Positions 44,889 through 58,071 of a stretch of DNA of 60,636 nt are shown here, piece after piece (position 1 is the first letter of the stretch; each line of letters starts with the position of its first letter). The stretch spans positions 1 through 60,636 of IMG/VR virus record IMGVR_UViG_3300023115_000022; one strand, given 5' to 3'. The notes under the pieces were generated by a model. That model was not told the DNA's origin, did no database searches, and worked only from the letters and a program-made list of their open reading frames with translations. The stretch comes from a virus. Position numbers and translations under genes: made by a program.

Positions 44889-46430
44889 TTAAAATTCTAA
44901 ACGCCATGTTCCAACTTGATATTCGCCATCTATAGACAATATCCACTCGTCTTGATCGAATTTGTACTGGACGCCTGTATTTAGATTGGTTGTATATACA
45001 ACGGTACTATCATCTTCGCTAGAATCAAAAACAATATGCCATTTTGATCCATCCCATTCTACAATATCATTAGCACTTGCGACAAAATCAGTTCCGTCTG
45101 CATTTTTCCATGCGTCGGGCCCGTCATATCCTGGTTTACCTACATTAACACTATCATTCAAATCGCCTAAAAGGAGTATTCTTGGATTAGAACCTTTCAA
45201 ACCGTCGGGATTTGTTCTTTGAGGATCAATAATGTAATCAATTTTGCTTCTATCTCCATTTGGACCGTGGAAAACTGTATCACTAGGTAAAGTATCTGTA
45301 TCCCAGTTGATTACAATTTCTGTAGGATCACTAGGGTTAATCTGAATGTATCCTACAATTTCTGTATCCCAGTCGGTTCGTAACAATCTAAGTTCTGTAC
45401 CGTTAAGGCTTCCTGTACCTTCAAATACAAATGGCATTGATTTAAGGTAACCTAGCCATGTTTCTGCGCCTACTATACCTTTTCTAACCAGTTGGGCGGT
45501 GCTATTTAATACAAGTAGGTTATAATTATCATGACTTGTATTGATTACAACGTCTACATCAGTTTTTACTGCCTCGGGACTAGTTTCAAGTTGTTTTATA
45601 CCATCCGTCGGAACCGTTGCAACCTTGGTGTGAACATCAGTTGTTGGCACTGTAGGTGTTTCTTCTTTAGTAATAACAGTTTTAACTTCATTTTTAGGAA
45701 AGTTTCTATCTTGAAATGCTTGTAAAGTAGGTCTTGAAAGATCAACCTCAATGGTTCCTTGACTTTCATTGAATATACTTTGGACAATTGTTGTAATAAC
45801 ACCTAAACGTTTTACTTTTACAGGCGGAGAAATCCAAATAGGTGTTTGAAAATTTAAAGTTGCTATGTCGATCTCGGATTCTGTCCCCATTGGTATGCTT
45901 CTGCTACTAAAAGTTAATCCTGTTAGGTTGACTACACTTAAACTTGTCCAATCAATGTAGTTATCTGTGGTTTGTATTTCTAAACTAGGATTAAACAACA
46001 TTAAAATTTGTTCTAGTATTTGTAATTTTTGATCAGTATTGCTACTCCAAATATCTACATTTACTGAAAGCAAATAAGGAGTAGGCATTAATCTTTCTAC
46101 AGTGTAGTTTTTGCCTTCTGTGTTTAAATATTCCTGGCCTGCGCTATCATATGCACGTTCTCTAATGTTTAGTTTGTTTACATAACTAGAATCGCTAAGA
46201 CGGTTTGTATCTTGTTCTAGAGCAGATACATAAACAGCCATTCTAGGTGCGCTAGGAATTTTGTTTTCTGAGTTTTCTCTAATAATATTAGCAACTTGTC
46301 TAGTCAAGTCGCCATACATGACAGGTACTTGTACCAAAGCACCTTTGCCATCTTTATAACTAAAGTTACTCATTAATCTTACGATTTGAGTAATGTAACG
46401 CCTTATTTGTCCGTCATAAAAATGTTGCAT
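44889..46430 (-). CDS. gp15: tail completion and sheath stabiliser protein (gp15-like) with long C-terminal extension, 513 aa
   Basis: Residues 1-220 match marine T4-like gp15: 'FYDGQIRRYITQIVRLMSNF', YGDLTRQVA, YTVERLMPTPYLL, LQILEQILMLFNPSLEIQTT and WISPPVKVKRLGVI. T4 gp15 is about 270 aa and caps the tail at its junction with the neck. Here another 290 residues follow: a Val/Thr-rich linker (about 225-290) and a C-terminal segment with repeated Asp- and Trp-containing beta motifs (DTEIVGYIQINPSDP, SKWHIVFD). The extension may add a decoration or collar element. The start codon overlaps the stop of the upstream gene by one base. Confidence 0.75.
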   Translation of the reverse strand: MQHFYDGQIRRYITQIVRLMSNFSYKDGKGALVQVPVMYGDLTRQVANIIRENSENKIPSAPRMAVYVSALEQDTNRLSDSSYVNKLNIRERAYDSAGQEYLNTEGKNYTVERLMPTPYLLSVNVDIWSSNTDQKLQILEQILMLFNPSLEIQTTDNYIDWTSLSVVNLTGLTFSSRSIPMGTESEIDIATLNFQTPIWISPPVKVKRLGVITTIVQSIFNESQGTIEVDLSRPTLQAFQDRNFPKNEVKTVITKEETPTVPTTDVHTKVATVPTDGIKQLETSPEAVKTDVDVVINTSHDNYNLLVLNSTAQLVRKGIVGAETWLGYLKSMPFVFEGTGSLNGTELRLLRTDWDTEIVGYIQINPSDPTEIVINWDTDTLPSDTVFHGPNGDRSKIDYIIDPQRTNPDGLKGSNPRILLLGDLNDSVNVGKPGYDGPDAWKNADGTDFVASANDIVEWDGSKWHIVFDSSEDDSTVVYTTNLNTGVQYKFDQDEWILSIDGEYQVGTWRLEF

Positions 46431-48094
46431 TAATTTCCAGCCTCAAAATTTTCAATTTGTGAAATCATGTCTCTATCACGCATTCTTCTAAAGTCGCGCT
46501 TGTTTACATTAGTAATTGTTACCCGCGCCATACCTGGACGAGCACCATAAGGTAATCTTATGTAATAATAATTTCCATCAGGGAAAGGATTTTTGGAAAC
46601 AGCAATTCGTCTACCGTCATATATAGCAGCAAGGAATGGTGTTGCCTCCATTTCACCTGTTTCATTGTTAGCAATATCTATAGATAAAAATATCTGCTGA
46701 TCGTTTGGCAATACTGCGTCTTCTAAATCACCGTATGCTTCTTCTTGCCTACGATTAATTTCATCTGTGATAACACCGGCAAATTTTAAAAAACGCATTC
46801 CTACAACATCTTGCATTGACCTAGGGCTTGCCAGTTCGTCATCTTTAAGCATAAGTGACATTTGAAGTGGCCTTTCCGAAGGATCTACTTGGTATACATA
46901 GCCCATATATACTATTTCTATAGGATCATAAAGTCCTGCATCAGGATTTAAAATAGTTTTATCTGCTTCGTCAGATTCTATAGCATTTTCATTTGCCTCA
47001 GCAAAAGCAAGTCTTCCTAGTCCGTATTCGGGATAAACAAATCTATATCCAAATGGCACAATTACACTGTTAATTTGTGCAATGTTTTCTGCTGACCGAG
47101 GTTCTCTCTGATAATCGCTTATAATATCTTCAATTACATTACTACCAAATTCCTGTTGATACATTTCCACAACTGCATTGAAATGTTCTCTGCTCTGAAT
47201 TCTTTGAAGTGCTCCTAATACTTTGTTTTCATTAGTTCCTGCACCAAATAATCCTTGTCTTAGTTGTTCTATTATAGATGGAATAGCCTCTTCTTGGTCT
47301 CCTGGTAATCCACCTTCTTCTCCTGAAATGCCTTCATCTCCTGCTTCACCTTCATTGCCGCCACCGCCGGGAAGGTTTATAGTAGGACCTACAGGATTTC
47401 CGTCAACATCTACGTAATTCATATTGTTGTCCATCCTGTTAACCTGTTCTCCCGTCTCGTCATGCAAGTTATCTCTATTTGCATCAACACGATCCGCCCA
47501 TGCATTTTGTTGGTCAATAACTTCTTGTGCGTTCATCATAGTAACATCTGATATTTCTGGTTCTGGTTCTGTTTCTGTAGGTGGTGTTTCTGTTGGTGTC
47601 TCTTCAGGTGGTGTTTCTGTTGGTGTCTCTTCAGGTGGTGTTTCTGTTGGTGTCTCTTCAGGTGGTGTTTCTGTTGGTGTCTCTTCAGGTTCTGTAGGTT
47701 CGTCTTCTCTTTCTTCCGGATCAATTTCTGTTTTATCCGGATCCGACTCAGGGGGTTTGACTTCACTGTCTCCGCTTACATCATCCTCTCCAGGAATTGG
47801 TATTTCTCCATCATCTTGAGGTGCAGGATCAAGAGCAGCTACATCTAATGGTGATTGAGTACCGCCAGGGCCTGATAAGAACATATTTTTTATAGTTCTG
47901 TCCGGATAATCTTGACTCATCCAATATTCTGCTGTTCTACGCATTAATTCCGGATCGTTTCTTAAATCGTCCGGTATTGGCCCAAAGTACACAGGCTTAC
48001 CTTCGTCATCAAAAACAACTAATACATAATAGTTTTGAGTATCTGGTCTAGGCGGTGTTTGTTCTTGCTCTTTTATAAATTCTTTAAATCTCAT
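46430..48094 (-). CDS. low-complexity neck-region protein with Pro/Thr/Glu repeats, 554 aa
   Basis: The N-terminus (MRFKEFIKEQ) is a style common in marine phage structural proteins. Residues about 90-180 are highly acidic and Pro/Thr-rich and include four exact 9-residue repeats (PEETPTETP in register). Residues about 280-332 ('GLFGAGTNENKVLGALQRIQ' then MYQQEFGSNVIEDI) resemble a single annexin-type repeat. The remaining 200 aa look folded (beta-rich, ending RLPYGARPGMARVTI). The gene lies between gp14 and gp15, so it is probably part of the neck or collar. No homologous function is known to me. Confidence 0.55.
   Translation of the reverse strand: MRFKEFIKEQEQTPPRPDTQNYYVLVVFDDEGKPVYFGPIPDDLRNDPELMRRTAEYWMSQDYPDRTIKNMFLSGPGGTQSPLDVAALDPAPQDDGEIPIPGEDDVSGDSEVKPPESDPDKTEIDPEEREDEPTEPEETPTETPPEETPTETPPEETPTETPPEETPTETPPTETEPEPEISDVTMMNAQEVIDQQNAWADRVDANRDNLHDETGEQVNRMDNNMNYVDVDGNPVGPTINLPGGGGNEGEAGDEGISGEEGGLPGDQEEAIPSIIEQLRQGLFGAGTNENKVLGALQRIQSREHFNAVVEMYQQEFGSNVIEDIISDYQREPRSAENIAQINSVIVPFGYRFVYPEYGLGRLAFAEANENAIESDEADKTILNPDAGLYDPIEIVYMGYVYQVDPSERPLQMSLMLKDDELASPRSMQDVVGMRFLKFAGVITDEINRRQEEAYGDLEDAVLPNDQQIFLSIDIANNETGEMEATPFLAAIYDGRRIAVSKNPFPDGNYYYIRLPYGARPGMARVTITNVNKRDFRRMRDRDMISQIENFEAGN
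47580..47687 (-). repeat. four perfect tandem copies of a 27-bp coding repeat
   Basis: Units at 47580-47606, 47607-47633, 47634-47660 and 47661-47687 are identical. Each encodes nine residues of a Pro/Thr/Glu repeat in the 554-aa neck-region protein. Perfect identity suggests recent expansion or contraction by slippage. Confidence 0.9.
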
Positions 48095-49173
48095 TTCCTT
48101 GCCTCCGGAGGTAGTGGTCTAAACGGAGAAATTTCAACTTCGTCTTCTCCTGGTTCTGTTTCAGCAGGAGGTGTAGGTGGTGTAGTTGCCGGCGGCTCCG
48201 GTGGCACCTCACTTGGCGGTACCTGAGGTTTAGGAGGCGTAGTTACTTCTGGCGGCTGCTCACTCGGACTAGGCACCGTTGGTGGCTCAGTAGGTACTAC
48301 AGGTGTAGATGGCTGTGTTGGTGGCTCTGTAGGCACCTGTGGCGCTGGTGTAGGAGTTGGTGTAGGTGTTTGTGTATCTACATCAGGAGTTACGTCAGGA
48401 GTGCTAGGAGGCCTTGGTTTGGGCGGCGTCGACGGCGTTTCAGGTCTAATATCAGGAGCTGAAGGAATTGTTGGAGGTTGCTCCGTAGGCACTTCAGGTG
48501 TAGGTGGCACTGTTGGAGGAACTTCTATTGTAGGTGCATCTGGAATAGGCTCTGGAATAGGCTCTAATGGTAAATCTTCAGGCGGCGTAACACCAAACTG
48601 CGGCTCATCTGTATCATCTCTAGGAGCATCAGCATCAAATCTTGGTTCATCTGTGTCAGAGCTCTGTCCACCACTTTGTTCACCTCCTTGTGTTCCACTA
48701 GGTTGGCCTCCAGGTTCGCCAGATCCTGTTGCAGGTCCTGTACCGGGTCCTGTGCTTGATCCATCGCCACCTGTACTTGTACCTCCTGGTCCTGACTGAT
48801 CGCCAGCTGTTCCTGCACCTGGTCCTTCACTACCCCCTGGTCCTAATCCACTATCACCTGAGCCCGGACCAAACCCGCCCGGTCCTGTTCCTGGTCCTGT
48901 TCCTTGTGTTCCTTGACCGTCTCCGCCTTCACCGCCTGTTCCTGGTATGACGACACACGACATTAAGTATTCTCTCCATTGCGGATAAACAAGCAAATAA
49001 GGCTCTACATTAGCAGCCCAAGACCCGCCAGCATCATTACCTGCCTGAGCGTTACCTTGCATAATTTTGTCTATATCACCAATAGCGCCTCTTTGGCTTC
49101 CTCTGCCAACTGCACGACATAAATGAGTCGGTCTTATTGATGCTGCTTCTACTTTTATATCTCTAAATTTCAT
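48091..49173 (-). CDS. largely disordered Gly-rich then Pro-rich protein, 360 aa
   Basis: Only residues 1-75 look folded (FRDIKVEAASIRPTHLCRAV, then WREYLMSCVVIPG). Residues about 76-170 are dominated by Gly, Ser, Thr and Pro. Residues about 195-350 are a Pro/Thr/Glu-rich chain of PTEPP- and PPTIP-like units. It starts on the last base of the gp14 stop codon and its own end overlaps the 554-aa gene by 4 bp, so it belongs to the neck operon. It could be a flexible whisker or collar filament, but I know no characterised homologue. The reverse strand is open too, an effect of composition. Confidence 0.6.
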   Translation of the reverse strand: MKFRDIKVEAASIRPTHLCRAVGRGSQRGAIGDIDKIMQGNAQAGNDAGGSWAANVEPYLLVYPQWREYLMSCVVIPGTGGEGGDGQGTQGTGPGTGPGGFGPGSGDSGLGPGGSEGPGAGTAGDQSGPGGTSTGGDGSSTGPGTGPATGSGEPGGQPSGTQGGEQSGGQSSDTDEPRFDADAPRDDTDEPQFGVTPPEDLPLEPIPEPIPDAPTIEVPPTVPPTPEVPTEQPPTIPSAPDIRPETPSTPPKPRPPSTPDVTPDVDTQTPTPTPTPAPQVPTEPPTQPSTPVVPTEPPTVPSPSEQPPEVTTPPKPQVPPSEVPPEPPATTPPTPPAETEPGEDEVEISPFRPLPPEARK

Positions 49174-50303
49174 TAGTTATCTGCCTTTGGTCTTAATGCT
49201 TTACTCAAGCTCTGACGTTCTGTAACCTGCTCGCCTCCAATTTCAGCAGTGTTTGTATTGTTAACAAAAGTACCTTTTTGAGTGCTTCTAGTATCAGTAT
49301 TACTTAGCGTCATTCTTACATCGTCTTCTTGTTTCACCCATCTTGTCCCGTCATATCTAAATAATCTATTAGGCGAAAAGTCTGTTCTTAAAAAGTAATC
49401 TCCTGTGTCATTGACACTAGGAAATTGTATGCCATGGCCAAACGGAGCACCGTTTGTAGGGATGCCGTCACCTAATAAATATCCTTTGTATCCTTCACGA
49501 TCAACACTTAACATTTCATCTGGTAATCCATCAGAATCAGTATCAACTAGTTCGGTATTACCATTATCATCAAGTTGCAAACTAAAATAATGACTTGTAT
49601 CGTATCCCGACTTTGCTGCATCAGCTTCTGCTTGTGATACTACTGCATTATTAATTTGCATTTCTCTTTCATACGTTGAAAGTACATCTCTCAAACTATT
49701 ACCTGCTTCGTCTCCTGCTGGAAGATCTAAGATTTCTTTAAATTCTTGACTATCTACTATCTGTTTGAGTTTTAATCTATACAAATGGGGATACCAAGTT
49801 GGTGAAAACCCTTCCGCTGCACGATTTACGTCTTCTACAACATAAAACCGTTTTAATGCAACGCTGTAATCATTTAGTGCATATTCGTCCTTTAAGTGAG
49901 GCAATTCAATAACATCGCCACTAATTATTTTTCTACCTAAAGTCTTTACACTACTGTTGATATGTATTGTTAAGAATAATGTATCGTTAGTTAAAAACAA
50001 TCCAAATTGGCTAAGATCAAAATCAATATCTTGTACATTGTATATGCCTCTCATTGTATAAATGTCCGGGTCATATTTTCTATCTCTATTTTCTAGGAAT
50101 AACAAATCTTGTATGTTTGTTTCTTTTACAGCATCATACTGAGGTTGATCAGCAGTCGCATCAGCAGAACTAGGATTTTCTGCTCCTAAAAATTTGTGTA
50201 CATTTATGTCTGTACCACCAACAGTAAACATTTCTTTGATTTGTTTATCTAAGAAAGTATAATCGTTACCGCGCTCTGGTTTATATAAAGATAGTCTTGG
50301 CAT
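49173..50303 (-). CDS. gp14: neck protein (gp14-like), 376 aa
   Basis: This matches the marine T4-like gp14 pattern: MPRLSLYKPERGNDYTF, VGGTDINVHKFLG, NIQDLLFLENRDRKYDPDIY and 'GDVIELPHLKDEYALNDYSV'. In T4, gp13 and gp14 close the head after packaging and form the tail-binding neck. The start ATG at 50303 is chosen over one at 50309 because it gives the usual MPRLSLY start and lies exactly at the predicted +1 of the minus-strand late promoter. There is no Shine-Dalgarno, so the mRNA would be leaderless. It is divergent from gp13. Confidence 0.78.
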   Translation of the reverse strand: MPRLSLYKPERGNDYTFLDKQIKEMFTVGGTDINVHKFLGAENPSSADATADQPQYDAVKETNIQDLLFLENRDRKYDPDIYTMRGIYNVQDIDFDLSQFGLFLTNDTLFLTIHINSSVKTLGRKIISGDVIELPHLKDEYALNDYSVALKRFYVVEDVNRAAEGFSPTWYPHLYRLKLKQIVDSQEFKEILDLPAGDEAGNSLRDVLSTYEREMQINNAVVSQAEADAAKSGYDTSHYFSLQLDDNGNTELVDTDSDGLPDEMLSVDREGYKGYLLGDGIPTNGAPFGHGIQFPSVNDTGDYFLRTDFSPNRLFRYDGTRWVKQEDDVRMTLSNTDTRSTQKGTFVNNTNTAEIGGEQVTERQSLSKALRPKADN

Positions 50304-50308
50304 ATACA

Positions 50309-50316
50309 TATTTATC
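50309..50316 (-). promoter_or_regulatory. minus-strand late promoter, half of a palindromic divergent pair
   Basis: The minus strand reads GATAAATA here and the plus strand reads GATAAATA at 50322-50329. Together, 50309-50318 and 50320-50329 form a perfect 10-bp inverted repeat around position 50319. The predicted minus-strand start falls at 50303, the A of the gp14 ATG. Confidence 0.7.
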
Positions 50317-50321
50317 GTAAC

Positions 50322-50329
50322 GATAAATA
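50322..50329 (+). promoter_or_regulatory. plus-strand late promoter, half of a palindromic divergent pair
   Basis: GATAAATA predicts a start at 50335, giving a 12-nt leader that consists mainly of the GGAGA ribosome-binding site before the ATG at 50347 (gp13-like). It is the mirror image of the minus-strand box. Confidence 0.72.
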
Positions 50330-50346
50330 CTATGTGGAGAAAGTAT

Positions 50347-51105
50347 ATGGCGAATTTAGTTACCCAAAAGCAAGAAATTTTTGATTATGTCTACGCAATG
50401 CTAGGCGGCGGTATGGTTGATGTAGAGTTAGATCCTGTGCATTATGAAACAGCACTTACTAAAGCACTAACTAGATATCGTATGCGCAGTGATTATTCTG
50501 TAGAAGAATCATATATGTTTATGCCTACAGTAATTGATCAAAATACATATACATTGCCAAATGAAGTAGTAGAAGTTCGTCAAATTTTCCGTAGAAGTAT
50601 AGGATCTAGAACAGGTGGCGGCGGCGGAGGTACATTATTCGAACCGTTCAACCTTGCATATACAAATACCTATTTGCTAAGTTCTACAAATATGGGAGGA
50701 CTTGCAACTTACGATTTCTTTTCACAATATCAAGAACTTGTAGGTAGAATGTTTGGGTCATTTATAGAATTTAAATGGAATACAACAACAAAAAATTTAA
50801 CACTTTTACAACGTCCAAGAGCAGAAGAAACTTTGTTGCTCTACTGCTACAATTATCGTCCAGACAGTCAATTATTTGACGACTACCTTGCAAAGCAATG
50901 GATTAAAGATTATACGCTTGCTGCTTGTAAATATATGTTAGGCGAAGCACGTTCAAAGTTTGCTACTATTGCAGGTCCACAAGGCGGTTCTTCGTTAAAT
51001 GGTGACGCTCTAAAAGCAGAAGCACAAAGTGAAATGGAAAAACTAGAAGCAGAAGTAGCAACAGCAGTTGCAGGCGGAAATGGGTACGGGTTCTTGATTG
51101 GATAA
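50347..51105 (+). CDS. gp13: neck protein (gp13-like), 252 aa
   Basis: The sequence carries the marine gp13 signature: 'EIFDYVYAMLGGGMVDVELD', VRQIFRRSIGSRTGGG, 'EPFNLAYTNTYLLSSTNMGG' and 'LGEARSKFATIAGPQGGSSL'. It pairs with gp14 in the head-closing neck. The ATG at 50347 is preferred over one at 50332, because the first would be upstream of the predicted transcript start and the second follows GGAGA at proper spacing. The C-terminus is Ala/Glu-rich and helical. It is followed after 2 bp by the hydrolase gene. Confidence 0.75.
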   Translation: MANLVTQKQEIFDYVYAMLGGGMVDVELDPVHYETALTKALTRYRMRSDYSVEESYMFMPTVIDQNTYTLPNEVVEVRQIFRRSIGSRTGGGGGGTLFEPFNLAYTNTYLLSSTNMGGLATYDFFSQYQELVGRMFGSFIEFKWNTTTKNLTLLQRPRAEETLLLYCYNYRPDSQLFDDYLAKQWIKDYTLAACKYMLGEARSKFATIAGPQGGSSLNGDALKAEAQSEMEKLEAEVATAVAGGNGYGFLIG

Positions 51106-51721: not shown

Positions 51722-52285
51722 ATGGCTTTACCTAAACTACTAGTTGTCGGTCATGGCAGACACGGAAAAGATACAGTCTGTGAAATGTTACAAAGTTTTG
51801 GATATACATTTCAATCAAGTTCTAAGTTCTGTTCAGAACTTTTTATATTCAACGATCTAAAAGACAAGTACGGGTATGCTAACGAAGAAGAGTGTTATGC
51901 AGATAGGCACAATCATCGCACAGAGTGGTACAACATGATACACAATTATTGTAAAGATGATCTAGCACGTTTAGGACGTAATTTATTTGCCGAACACGAC
52001 ATATATTGTGGACTACGCAATAAACGAGAGTTCTTTGCAATGCAAAATGAAGAAATTTTTGATTATGCTATTTGGGTTGATCGTTGCGATCATTTGCCTA
52101 CGGAAGATCCTAGTTCAATGAGTATTGAACAGTGGATGTGCGATTATACAATTGACAACAATGGCGATCTAAAAAGATTAGAAAAGAATGTAGCAATTCT
52201 TATGCGTACTATTTTTAGAAATCAGGGCGTAAATCTCCCTGCCTCCACCGGACACCGATTTTTTGCAGAATTCGTTGACAGTTAG
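51722..52285 (+). CDS. deoxynucleoside monophosphate kinase, 187 aa
   Basis: The N-terminus has the P-loop variant GHGRHGKDT (10-18) of T4-type dNMP kinases, which phosphorylate dNMPs to supply dNTPs for replication. Other family-like elements are LGRNLFAEHDIYCGLRNKRE and IWVDRCDH. It is shorter than T4 gene 1 (241 aa). The last 71 bp overlap an HNH endonuclease gene on the opposite strand, so the final 23 residues may have been created by that insertion. A strong sigma-70 promoter sets it apart from the late neighbours. Confidence 0.75.
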   Translation: MALPKLLVVGHGRHGKDTVCEMLQSFGYTFQSSSKFCSELFIFNDLKDKYGYANEEECYADRHNHRTEWYNMIHNYCKDDLARLGRNLFAEHDIYCGLRNKREFFAMQNEEIFDYAIWVDRCDHLPTEDPSSMSIEQWMCDYTIDNNGDLKRLEKNVAILMRTIFRNQGVNLPASTGHRFFAEFVDS

Positions 52286-52550
52286 CACAAACTGTTTTTA
52301 AATTTGTAGGCCGACAATTGTTTAGATCCCCGTCAATGTGATAAACACTAAACTGTTCAGGATGTTTGCTTGAGAAATTACATTTTTCACAAACATCCTT
52401 TTTTGTATATCCTCTTTGTTGCCATTTTGGCACTCCATGATTAACGCCGTTACGTAAACACCTTTCACAAAGTTTTCTGTAATAAAACTTATCTCCTTTT
52501 TTGTAATTTATTGCTGCTGGACGTTGTCCGCACTTACATAACGGTCTCAT
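52215..52550 (-). CDS. HNH homing endonuclease, 111 aa
   Basis: Zinc-finger pairs CKCGQRP and CERC, then CEKC, precede the HNH core YHIDGDLNNCRPTNLKTVCA, and the protein ends WRQGDLRPDF, a typical closing motif of phage free-standing HNH enzymes. Such genes spread by cutting uninfected alleles. It runs antisense to the end of the dNMP kinase gene. Its leader has GGTGAGGT as a possible ribosome-binding site and a GGTAAATA box (52555-52562) as a possible late promoter. Confidence 0.82.
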   Translation of the reverse strand: MRPLCKCGQRPAAINYKKGDKFYYRKLCERCLRNGVNHGVPKWQQRGYTKKDVCEKCNFSSKHPEQFSVYHIDGDLNNCRPTNLKTVCANCQRILQKIGVRWRQGDLRPDF

Positions 52551-52554
52551 ATTG

Positions 52555-52562
52555 TATTTACC
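52555..52562 (-). promoter_or_regulatory. possible late promoter for the HNH gene
   Basis: The minus strand reads GGTAAATA 4 nt before the ATG at 52550. T4 spacing would start the RNA at or just inside the codon, so either translation is leaderless or the box is fortuitous and GAGGT simply serves as the ribosome-binding site. Confidence 0.3.
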
Positions 52563-52617
52563 TCACCTTTTTGGTACCTTTTTACCAGTGTTTAATCCTA
52601 TATTTTCGTTAGAGAAT

Positions 52618-52625
52618 GGTAAATA
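52618..52625 (+). promoter_or_regulatory. late promoter variant GGTAAATA for the tail sheath gene
   Basis: The predicted start near 52631 leaves a 30-nt leader with ACAGGAG before the ATG at 52661. An in-frame upstream ATG at 52616 lies within the box and would not be on this mRNA. Confidence 0.6.
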
Positions 52626-56768: not shown

Positions 56769-56776
56769 GATAAATA
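56769..56776 (+). promoter_or_regulatory. late promoter placed for a leaderless mRNA
   Basis: GATAAATA ends 5 nt before the ATG at 56782, so the predicted +1 is the A of the start codon. The terminator just upstream blocks read-through, leaving this as the evident source of mRNA for the next gene. The only Shine-Dalgarno-like bases, AAGGA at 56766-56770, lie within or ahead of the promoter box. Confidence 0.7.
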
Positions 56777-56781
56777 TTTGT

Positions 56782-58071
56782 ATGGCGAATAAGTTTAATA
56801 GTCTTTTTGATAGTATTGCAGGCGGAGCTCTTAATCCTAAAGGTAATTTAGGTGACTACGCACATGCGGCTAGACTTTATACAGATAATAATCATGCTCT
56901 AGCACCAAAAACAAGATTTTTATATCATGTATTTTTTGATATAAATCCTACAGCAGCAAGCATTATACCCACTATAAATGCCCAAAAAATAAATGAAATG
57001 GGCATGCTGGTAAAAAGTGCAACTCTGCCAACTTATACCGCAACTGTTGAAACTAGAAAACAATACAATAGGGTAAAGCATAGTCAAACATCTATTACAT
57101 ACGACCCTGTAAACTTAACCTTCCATGATGACAACTCTAGTTTAACAACAGCACTAATGCAGGCATACTATAGATATTACTTTGCAGACGGCAACCAAAT
57201 AAGGAACGCCGGAAGAGCCTACAGTCGAACACCGAATAGTTTGTATCAAGGTAGTTCTCGTAATAAAGATAAATTTGGTTTAGATAATAACAATCCAGGA
57301 CTACCATTTTTTAATAGTATTCAAATTAGTCAGTTATCAAGAGGATCGTATGTAACGTATACACTTGTAAACCCAATTGTAACGGCATGGGGGCATGACA
57401 GGGTTGACAATTCTGATGGAGCCGGCATGGCAGAAAACTCCATGCAAATTTCTTACGAAGCAGTGTTTTATGATGCTGGCGCTATTGAGGCAGGCGCAAA
57501 TGGAGAACCAAACGGATTTGGACAAGATCATTATGATACAACTCCTAGCCCATTAAGTTTAATAGGTGGTGGAACAACAAGCATAGGTTCCATTATTTCA
57601 GGCGCTTTAGACCTATATGATTTTATTGCAGGCGGCGATACATTTGACAATCCATTAGAAGCAGCATTAGCAGCAGCAAATCTAATTGGTAATGTAAGAG
57701 ATTTAAGCTCTGAAGGTTTGAGACAGGGAGGGTTTAATATATTAACCAGAGCAATTGGTAGGGCAGCGGGTATAGATGTTAGTGGTGTTGCAGGTACATT
57801 CTTTCCAAAAAATAATGGCACTGGAGGCGACGGAAAATTACTATTAGCTACAGCAGGCGCGGCACTAGCTGTAAATGCAATTAGAAATGCAAATCAAAGA
57901 AATACACTAGCAAATAATCCTGCTGCATTAGAATCTGCTGCTAGACAGGAGTTTGGAAAAGATTGGCAGGCAGCAGGAAATGCAGGTGGTATTAACGAAA
58001 GAAATGCTGCCTGGAACGCTATAGGTCAGTCAGAAAGACAGGTATATAGAGATAGAGCTCTAGGAGGTTAA
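56782..58071 (+). CDS. tail-tube-like structural protein (gp19/gp54-related), 429 aa
   Basis: Residues 1-250 follow a pattern known from marine T4-like phages: SLFDSIAGGALNPKGNLGDY, MGMLVKSATLPTYTATVETR, 'SITYDPVNLTFHDDNSSLTT', LMQAYYRYYFADG and 'TYTLVNPIVTAWGHDRVDNS'. This looks like the tail-tube fold used by gp19 and by the tube initiators gp48/gp54. Residues 265-429 are an Ala/Gly-rich helical extension. The exact counterpart is uncertain: a tube initiator, terminator or paralogue. The mRNA appears leaderless. Confidence 0.6.
   Translation: MANKFNSLFDSIAGGALNPKGNLGDYAHAARLYTDNNHALAPKTRFLYHVFFDINPTAASIIPTINAQKINEMGMLVKSATLPTYTATVETRKQYNRVKHSQTSITYDPVNLTFHDDNSSLTTALMQAYYRYYFADGNQIRNAGRAYSRTPNSLYQGSSRNKDKFGLDNNNPGLPFFNSIQISQLSRGSYVTYTLVNPIVTAWGHDRVDNSDGAGMAENSMQISYEAVFYDAGAIEAGANGEPNGFGQDHYDTTPSPLSLIGGGTTSIGSIISGALDLYDFIAGGDTFDNPLEAALAAANLIGNVRDLSSEGLRQGGFNILTRAIGRAAGIDVSGVAGTFFPKNNGTGGDGKLLLATAGAALAVNAIRNANQRNTLANNPAALESAARQEFGKDWQAAGNAGGINERNAAWNAIGQSERQVYRDRALGG

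Follow-up and report, generated by a model that had tools for sequence, protein, structure and literature searches.

In phage T4, the late promoters that depend on gp55, gp33 and gp45 (PMC2988020) consist of one 8-bp box at positions -13 to -6, have no -35 element and drive the late virion genes. Transcription starts on the sixth nucleotide past the box, and the late complexes carry a clamp at their upstream end that adds 13 bp to the footprint (PMC2988020). Leaderless mRNAs of bacteria and phages (e.g., lambda cI; PMC9031893) start with a 5' AUG, have no Shine-Dalgarno sequence (SD) and are weakly structured at the 5' end; their initiation strongly favours AUG in E. coli and Caulobacter (PMC9031893). 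In the bidirectional promoters of E. coli divergent transcription issues from one short stretch to which two polymerases cannot bind simultaneously for steric reasons; a single -10 element is shared, the start sites usually lie 10, 18 or 23 bp apart and the exclusion has an effect only when firing is frequent (PMC12825309).

The locus described here lies on a 60.6-kb IMG/VR virus fragment (60,636 nucleotides, the whole of which is referred to as the window), between two divergent genes for neck proteins, gp13 and a gp14-like protein. We consider it highly probable that the genes are governed by a very short divergent control region in which two T4-type late promoters would give an SD-led gp13 mRNA and a leaderless gp14 mRNA. 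The promoters share with those of T4 the 8-bp box from -13 to -6, the lack of a -35 element, the late virion genes that they serve and a gp55-like sigma factor (found within the group), while they differ in having G rather than T at -13, in standing back to back with a 5-bp gap and in a predicted start that falls on an AUG. Genes 13 and 14 run in the same direction in T4 and diverge in the window; a search of the T4 genome for ATAAATA-N4-6-ATG returned two pattern matches, none of them at an annotated gene start. With known leaderless mRNAs the locus shares the predicted 5' AUG, the missing SD, the preference for AUG and the weak 5' structure; it is set apart by virion genes read from late phage promoters, and by repeated replacement of the leaderless start with SD plus AUC/AUU in close relatives. 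The likeness to the E. coli bidirectional promoters lies in divergent transcription from a short stretch and in the probable steric exclusion; the locus is not a bidirectional promoter in the sense of Warman and Grainger, as it has two separate boxes and predicted start sites 32 bp apart. Leaderless mRNAs have usually been found singly, by transcript mapping; the present case comes from a comparison of about 200 phages.

Identity and context of the neck genes

The minus-strand gene (49173-50303, 376 aa, predicted leaderless) belongs to the virion structural family phrog_11591. An assignment to gp14 by sequence was rejected: its sequence showed no detectable relationship to that of T4 gp14 (an hhalign probability of 1.9%) and no match in PDB or Pfam. 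In contrast, when a modest AlphaFold2 model of the protein (pLDDT 57) was searched with Foldseek, the top three hits were T4 gp14 chains (E 1.8e-5, probability 1.00), and the gene stands directly before that of a gp15-like tail sheath stabiliser in PA5oct, Vibrio phage 2.275 and Munch, just as gene 14 directly precedes gene 15 in T4. We therefore accept the phrog_11591 gene as a putative gp14 (head closure Hc2) homologue by predicted fold and position, and not by sequence; the name gp14, which a reading of the sequence alone had proposed, can be kept on the strength of the modelled fold. In the window the gp14-like and gp15-like genes share a strand and are separated by two large ORFs (46430-49173, minus strand), which are rich in Pro/Glu/Thr and in Gly and fall in no PHROG family.

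The plus-strand gene (50347-51105) was identified by a family match as that of the gp13-like neck protein (phrog_211, head-tail adaptor Ad2), and comparison places its start at 50347, not at 50332. The named relatives are jumbo myoviruses (Sinorhizobium phage Phosso, Agrobacterium phage Atu_ph07, Pseudomonas phage PA5oct and the RaK2/121Q/Munch group). The gp13 and gp14-like genes are divergent neighbours in Atu_ph07, Phosso and the window, and lie far apart in PA5oct, 121Q and RaK2.

Two late promoter boxes between gp13 and gp14

A perfect inverted repeat occupies positions 50309-50329, with 10-bp arms TATTTATCGT (50309-50318) and ACGATAAATA (50320-50329) on either side of a central A (50319); the sequence-only reading had described such a palindrome, with GATAAATA on both strands, and the coordinates confirm it. 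The repeat is composed of two facing boxes, each followed inwards by a 2-bp spacer: the GATAAATA of the gp14-like gene on the minus strand (50309-50316; predicted +1 at 50303; also present in relatives) and the GATAAATA of gp13 on the plus strand (50322-50329; predicted +1 at 50334-50336). The box matches the T4-type late box TATAAATA at seven of eight positions, the mismatch falling at -13. It occurs 10 times in the window (5.05 +/- 2.05 in shuffles), mostly a little upstream of late genes, and a divergent pair within 26 bp arose in only 1 of 300 first-order Markov randomisations. An Rfam search of 49900-51000 gave no match, and sigma-70 promoters and terminators near the box pair did not rise above chance level.

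On the gp13 side, the predicted 5' end coincides with or adjoins the SD (GGAG, 50336-50339), a motif found upstream of gp13 in most relatives. Since the sixth nucleotide past the plus-strand box is a T (50335) and its neighbours are purines, transcription is likelier to start at 50334 or 50336. The earlier proposal of a 12-nt leader with an SD consequently holds as far as the SD is concerned, and its length becomes about 11-13 nt.

On the minus strand, T4 numbering (carried over by analogy, as the window box has G at -13) puts +1 at 50303, on the A of an ATG. An ORF finder places the start of the gene at ATG 50309 instead; this codon, however, runs into the box and precedes +1, and several relatives (e.g., L071 and L082) lack it, so that we regard 50303 as the likelier start. 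Such programs would misplace gp14 starts throughout the group, either by choosing an ATG upstream of +1 or by missing AUC/AUU.

Predicted leaderless and leadered gp14 genes in relatives

The relatives comprised 203 unique gp14 loci, each with at least 80 nt upstream of the gene. The stretch between box and ATG (50304-50308 in the window, minus strand) varies in sequence and is strongly conserved in length, being exactly 5 nt in 142 of the 203 loci, 4 nt in 3 and 6 nt in 1; thus the ATG stands 4-6 nt past the box in 146 relatives, and 7-8 nt past it in 15 more. All 161 copies with N4-N8 start with ATG and none of them has an SD. The strictness of the ATG in this class would follow from the strong dependence of leaderless initiation on AUG.

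The leadered copies (N20-28) present the opposite picture: an SD precedes 42 of 42, and 36 start with a codon other than ATG (ATC 24, ATT 9, GTG 2, TTG 1). Leader class and start codon are tightly associated across the 203 relatives (Fisher p 4.5e-34, computed on related sequences). In a FastTree protein tree of the gp14-like family, from which the first ten codons were left out, seven to nine of nine tree-independent contrasts between leadered and leaderless copies went in the same direction and none in the opposite one (sign test p 0.004-0.016). The swap is not absolute, considering that two basal copies (L231, L235) combine an SD with GTG, and L088 and the basal L236 combine it with ATG.

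AUC/AUU is the best-supported start of the leadered copies because GGAG lies 7 nt from AUC, AUU or UUG in nearly all copies so starting, because many copies lack another in-frame start upstream and because the differences in leader length are not multiples of three. Nor does any of these copies offer a usable in-frame start before codon 18-25, except for a TTG in L067. About 12 copies do carry an in-frame ATG two codons upstream of the AUC, yet it is only 1 nt from the SD. A near-cognate start behind an SD has a precedent in the AUU of E. coli infC; here, in contrast, many phages conserve such a start, the gene is a late structural one and the alternative is a leaderless AUG.

The swap may be carried by a small piece of DNA. 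L039 (SD + ATT) and L165 (leaderless ATG) encode near-identical proteins and share both promoters, and differ in the leader and codons 1-6, which suggests that a short cassette of about 45 bp was exchanged between relatives of these types; a literature search for mobile late-promoter cassettes found no paper that named them. Between L039 (L158) and L165, codons 2-6 of the otherwise near-identical gene are recoded with the amino acids unchanged. The relatives hence offer a natural experiment, in which one gene behind one promoter occurs in leadered and leaderless forms, with a change of start codon to match. Two matters thereby become directly testable: how leaderless and SD-led starts compare in strength in the natural host, and why selection maintains near-cognate AUU/AUC starts.

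A possible set-point for gp14 output

We propose that the gp55-like phage sigma reads each 8-bp box, with no -35 element involved. The plus-strand promoter would then yield a gp13 mRNA whose SD leader is minimal, and the minus-strand promoter, firing at the first base of the gp14 start codon, a leaderless mRNA whose initiation would depend on its 5' AUG. Leaderless initiation would hold gp14 output low; where a leader is present, the SD would raise that output and the near-cognate AUC/AUU would bring the low set-point back. We infer such a dosage set-point as the simplest account of why leadered copies avoid AUG. The broader reading is a tentative one, which we would not call probable: that a neck protein is kept at a fixed low level of translation by either of two interchangeable devices (leaderless AUG, or SD plus AUC/AUU), swapped as a cassette of about 45 bp, and that leader class acts as a code that sets the dosage of late virion proteins for each gene separately. 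Low copy number as the sole predictor of leaderlessness was rejected, being contradicted by gp13, which is presumably a low-copy protein as well and is SD-led with AUG.

The main rival to the set-point is plain inheritance: the AUC/AUU of leadered copies may have spread with one recombining cassette and compensate for nothing. This is a serious possibility, if a somewhat doubtful one, as the short cassette (leader plus codons 1-6) apparently does move among close relatives and most AUC copies sit in one clade. However, a single inherited cassette sits uneasily with the variety of codons (AUC, AUU, and UUG in L067) over switches that occurred separately at least nine times in the tree, and with the rarity of reversion: a return to AUG takes one base change, yet L088 is the only such copy nested in the clade, besides the basal L236.

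Predicted transcription start on the gp14 AUG

When every gene of the loci analysed is counted, the distance from box to ATG is bimodal: 138 cases fall at N5, N9-11 is empty and another hump spans N16-24; this distribution is weighted to gp14 by sampling, and family-level medians give nearly the same gap. The initiating position can also be approached through the SD-led promoters of the tail-tube and tail-sheath genes, which have no ATG nearby: nucleotide 5 past the box is T (frequencies 0.86 and 0.77, respectively) and nucleotide 6 a purine (1.00 and 0.98), as expected of an initiating T-A step, so that +1 would fall on the A of the gp14 ATG. The 5' ends predicted to be leaderless have little structure (mean MFE -2.8 kcal/mol, against -5.4 kcal/mol for internal stretches). 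The fixed 5-nt spacing, the strict ATG and the absence of an SD in 161 relatives, together with the signature at nucleotides 5-6, thus lend strong support to the leaderless gp14 mRNA predicted from the window, whose 5' end would be the A of its start codon.

Transcripts that begin farther upstream may carry gp14 too, and T4-like late transcription is capable of reading through; one may hence ask whether gp14 is translated by ordinary initiation from a read-through mRNA, the 5-nt spacing being due to chance or hitch-hiking. We think this unlikely, since the 5-nt length is kept though its sequence varies, distances jump to N8 or to N20 and more with none at N9-11, 161 copies have no SD ahead of the ATG, the neighbouring gene upstream points the opposite way and the identical spacing turns up in unrelated gene families. 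It is very improbable, finally, that the ATG is fixed at N5 as part of an extended promoter motif irrelevant to translation: it does occupy +1 to +3, where the initiating sequence might count, but N8 copies and SD-led promoters retain T-A or T-G at nucleotides 5-6 with no ATG there, and leadered gp14 copies retain the box and drop the ATG.

Leaderlessness most probably originated within the environmental clade that includes the window, since in the distant relatives (PA5oct, RaK2, Munch, 121Q, Atu_ph07 and Phosso) the gp14-like gene has a late-type box, a leader and an ATG.

Conservation of the promoter pair

Both boxes stand back to back in 199 of the 203 relatives. With T4 set aside, a sigma factor of the gp55 type (phrog_12791, E 8e-66 to 6e-118) was found in 12 of the 13 largest contigs and phages among the relatives, the exception being G007; the count covers these large relatives, and the window itself is a fragment. 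The gap between the boxes ranges from -1 to 25 bp and the palindrome is perfect in only 43 of the 199 pairs; therefore what is conserved is the two promoters, and the palindrome is a by-product of boxes that face each other. As a conserved element the palindrome was rejected, and as the functional unit it finds no support, considering that 156 of the 199 relatives keep the divergence without it. The comparison with relatives, which the sequence-only reading had suggested as a refuting test, hence tells against the palindrome and in favour of the two outward late promoters, which are retained. The gaps peak at 4-6 bp (127 pairs) and at 14-17 bp (42 pairs), about one helical turn apart, which may reflect phasing or phylogeny.

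There is little to recommend the idea that a dimeric regulator has its operator in the palindrome, with the late boxes inside it by coincidence. The arms in the window are indeed perfect over 10 bp, and spacers with an initial G and a final C are frequent in relatives; nevertheless, an inter-arm gap of -1 to 25 bp and so few perfect copies do not befit an operator, and the invariant parts are the boxes, which also occur singly upstream of other late genes.

The predicted start sites of a pair lie about 26-52 bp apart in relatives. Given this distance and a clamp that extends the footprint, it is likely that two polymerase complexes could hardly occupy one pair at once in any relative, as had been supposed for the window, and the pair would then be served by one polymerase at a time. 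Such exclusion may conceivably balance the two neck proteins, as the sequence-only reading had proposed, although in E. coli competition of this kind shows only at high activity (PMC12825309).

Other late genes predicted to be with and without leaders

Leader class tracks gene family: gp13, tail tube and tail sheath are leadered, and the families predicted to be mostly leaderless are the gp14-like gene, a tail-tube paralogue, an HNH ORF and a gene beginning MKNLDLIAEELF. Hence, at least three gene families besides the gp14-like one are predicted to be leaderless.

The tail-tube paralogue of the window (phrog_13438/4542; 56782-58071, plus strand, predicted leaderless) has a GATAAATA box at 56769-56776 (plus strand), 5 nt ahead of its ATG, and the leaderless spacing (N4-5) is held in this family down to about 43% identity. 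A terminator-like hairpin, which follows the main tail tube gene, immediately precedes the paralogue and its box. The HNH-type ORF (52215-52550, minus strand, predicted leaderless) diverges from the SD-led tail-sheath gene and has a late-type box, GGTAAATA, at 52555-52562 (minus strand), 4 nt ahead of its ATG. This ORF (predicted leaderless in most relatives), with the stretch at 52555-52625, and the tail-sheath gene thus make up another divergent late pair, in which only the tail-sheath gene is leadered.
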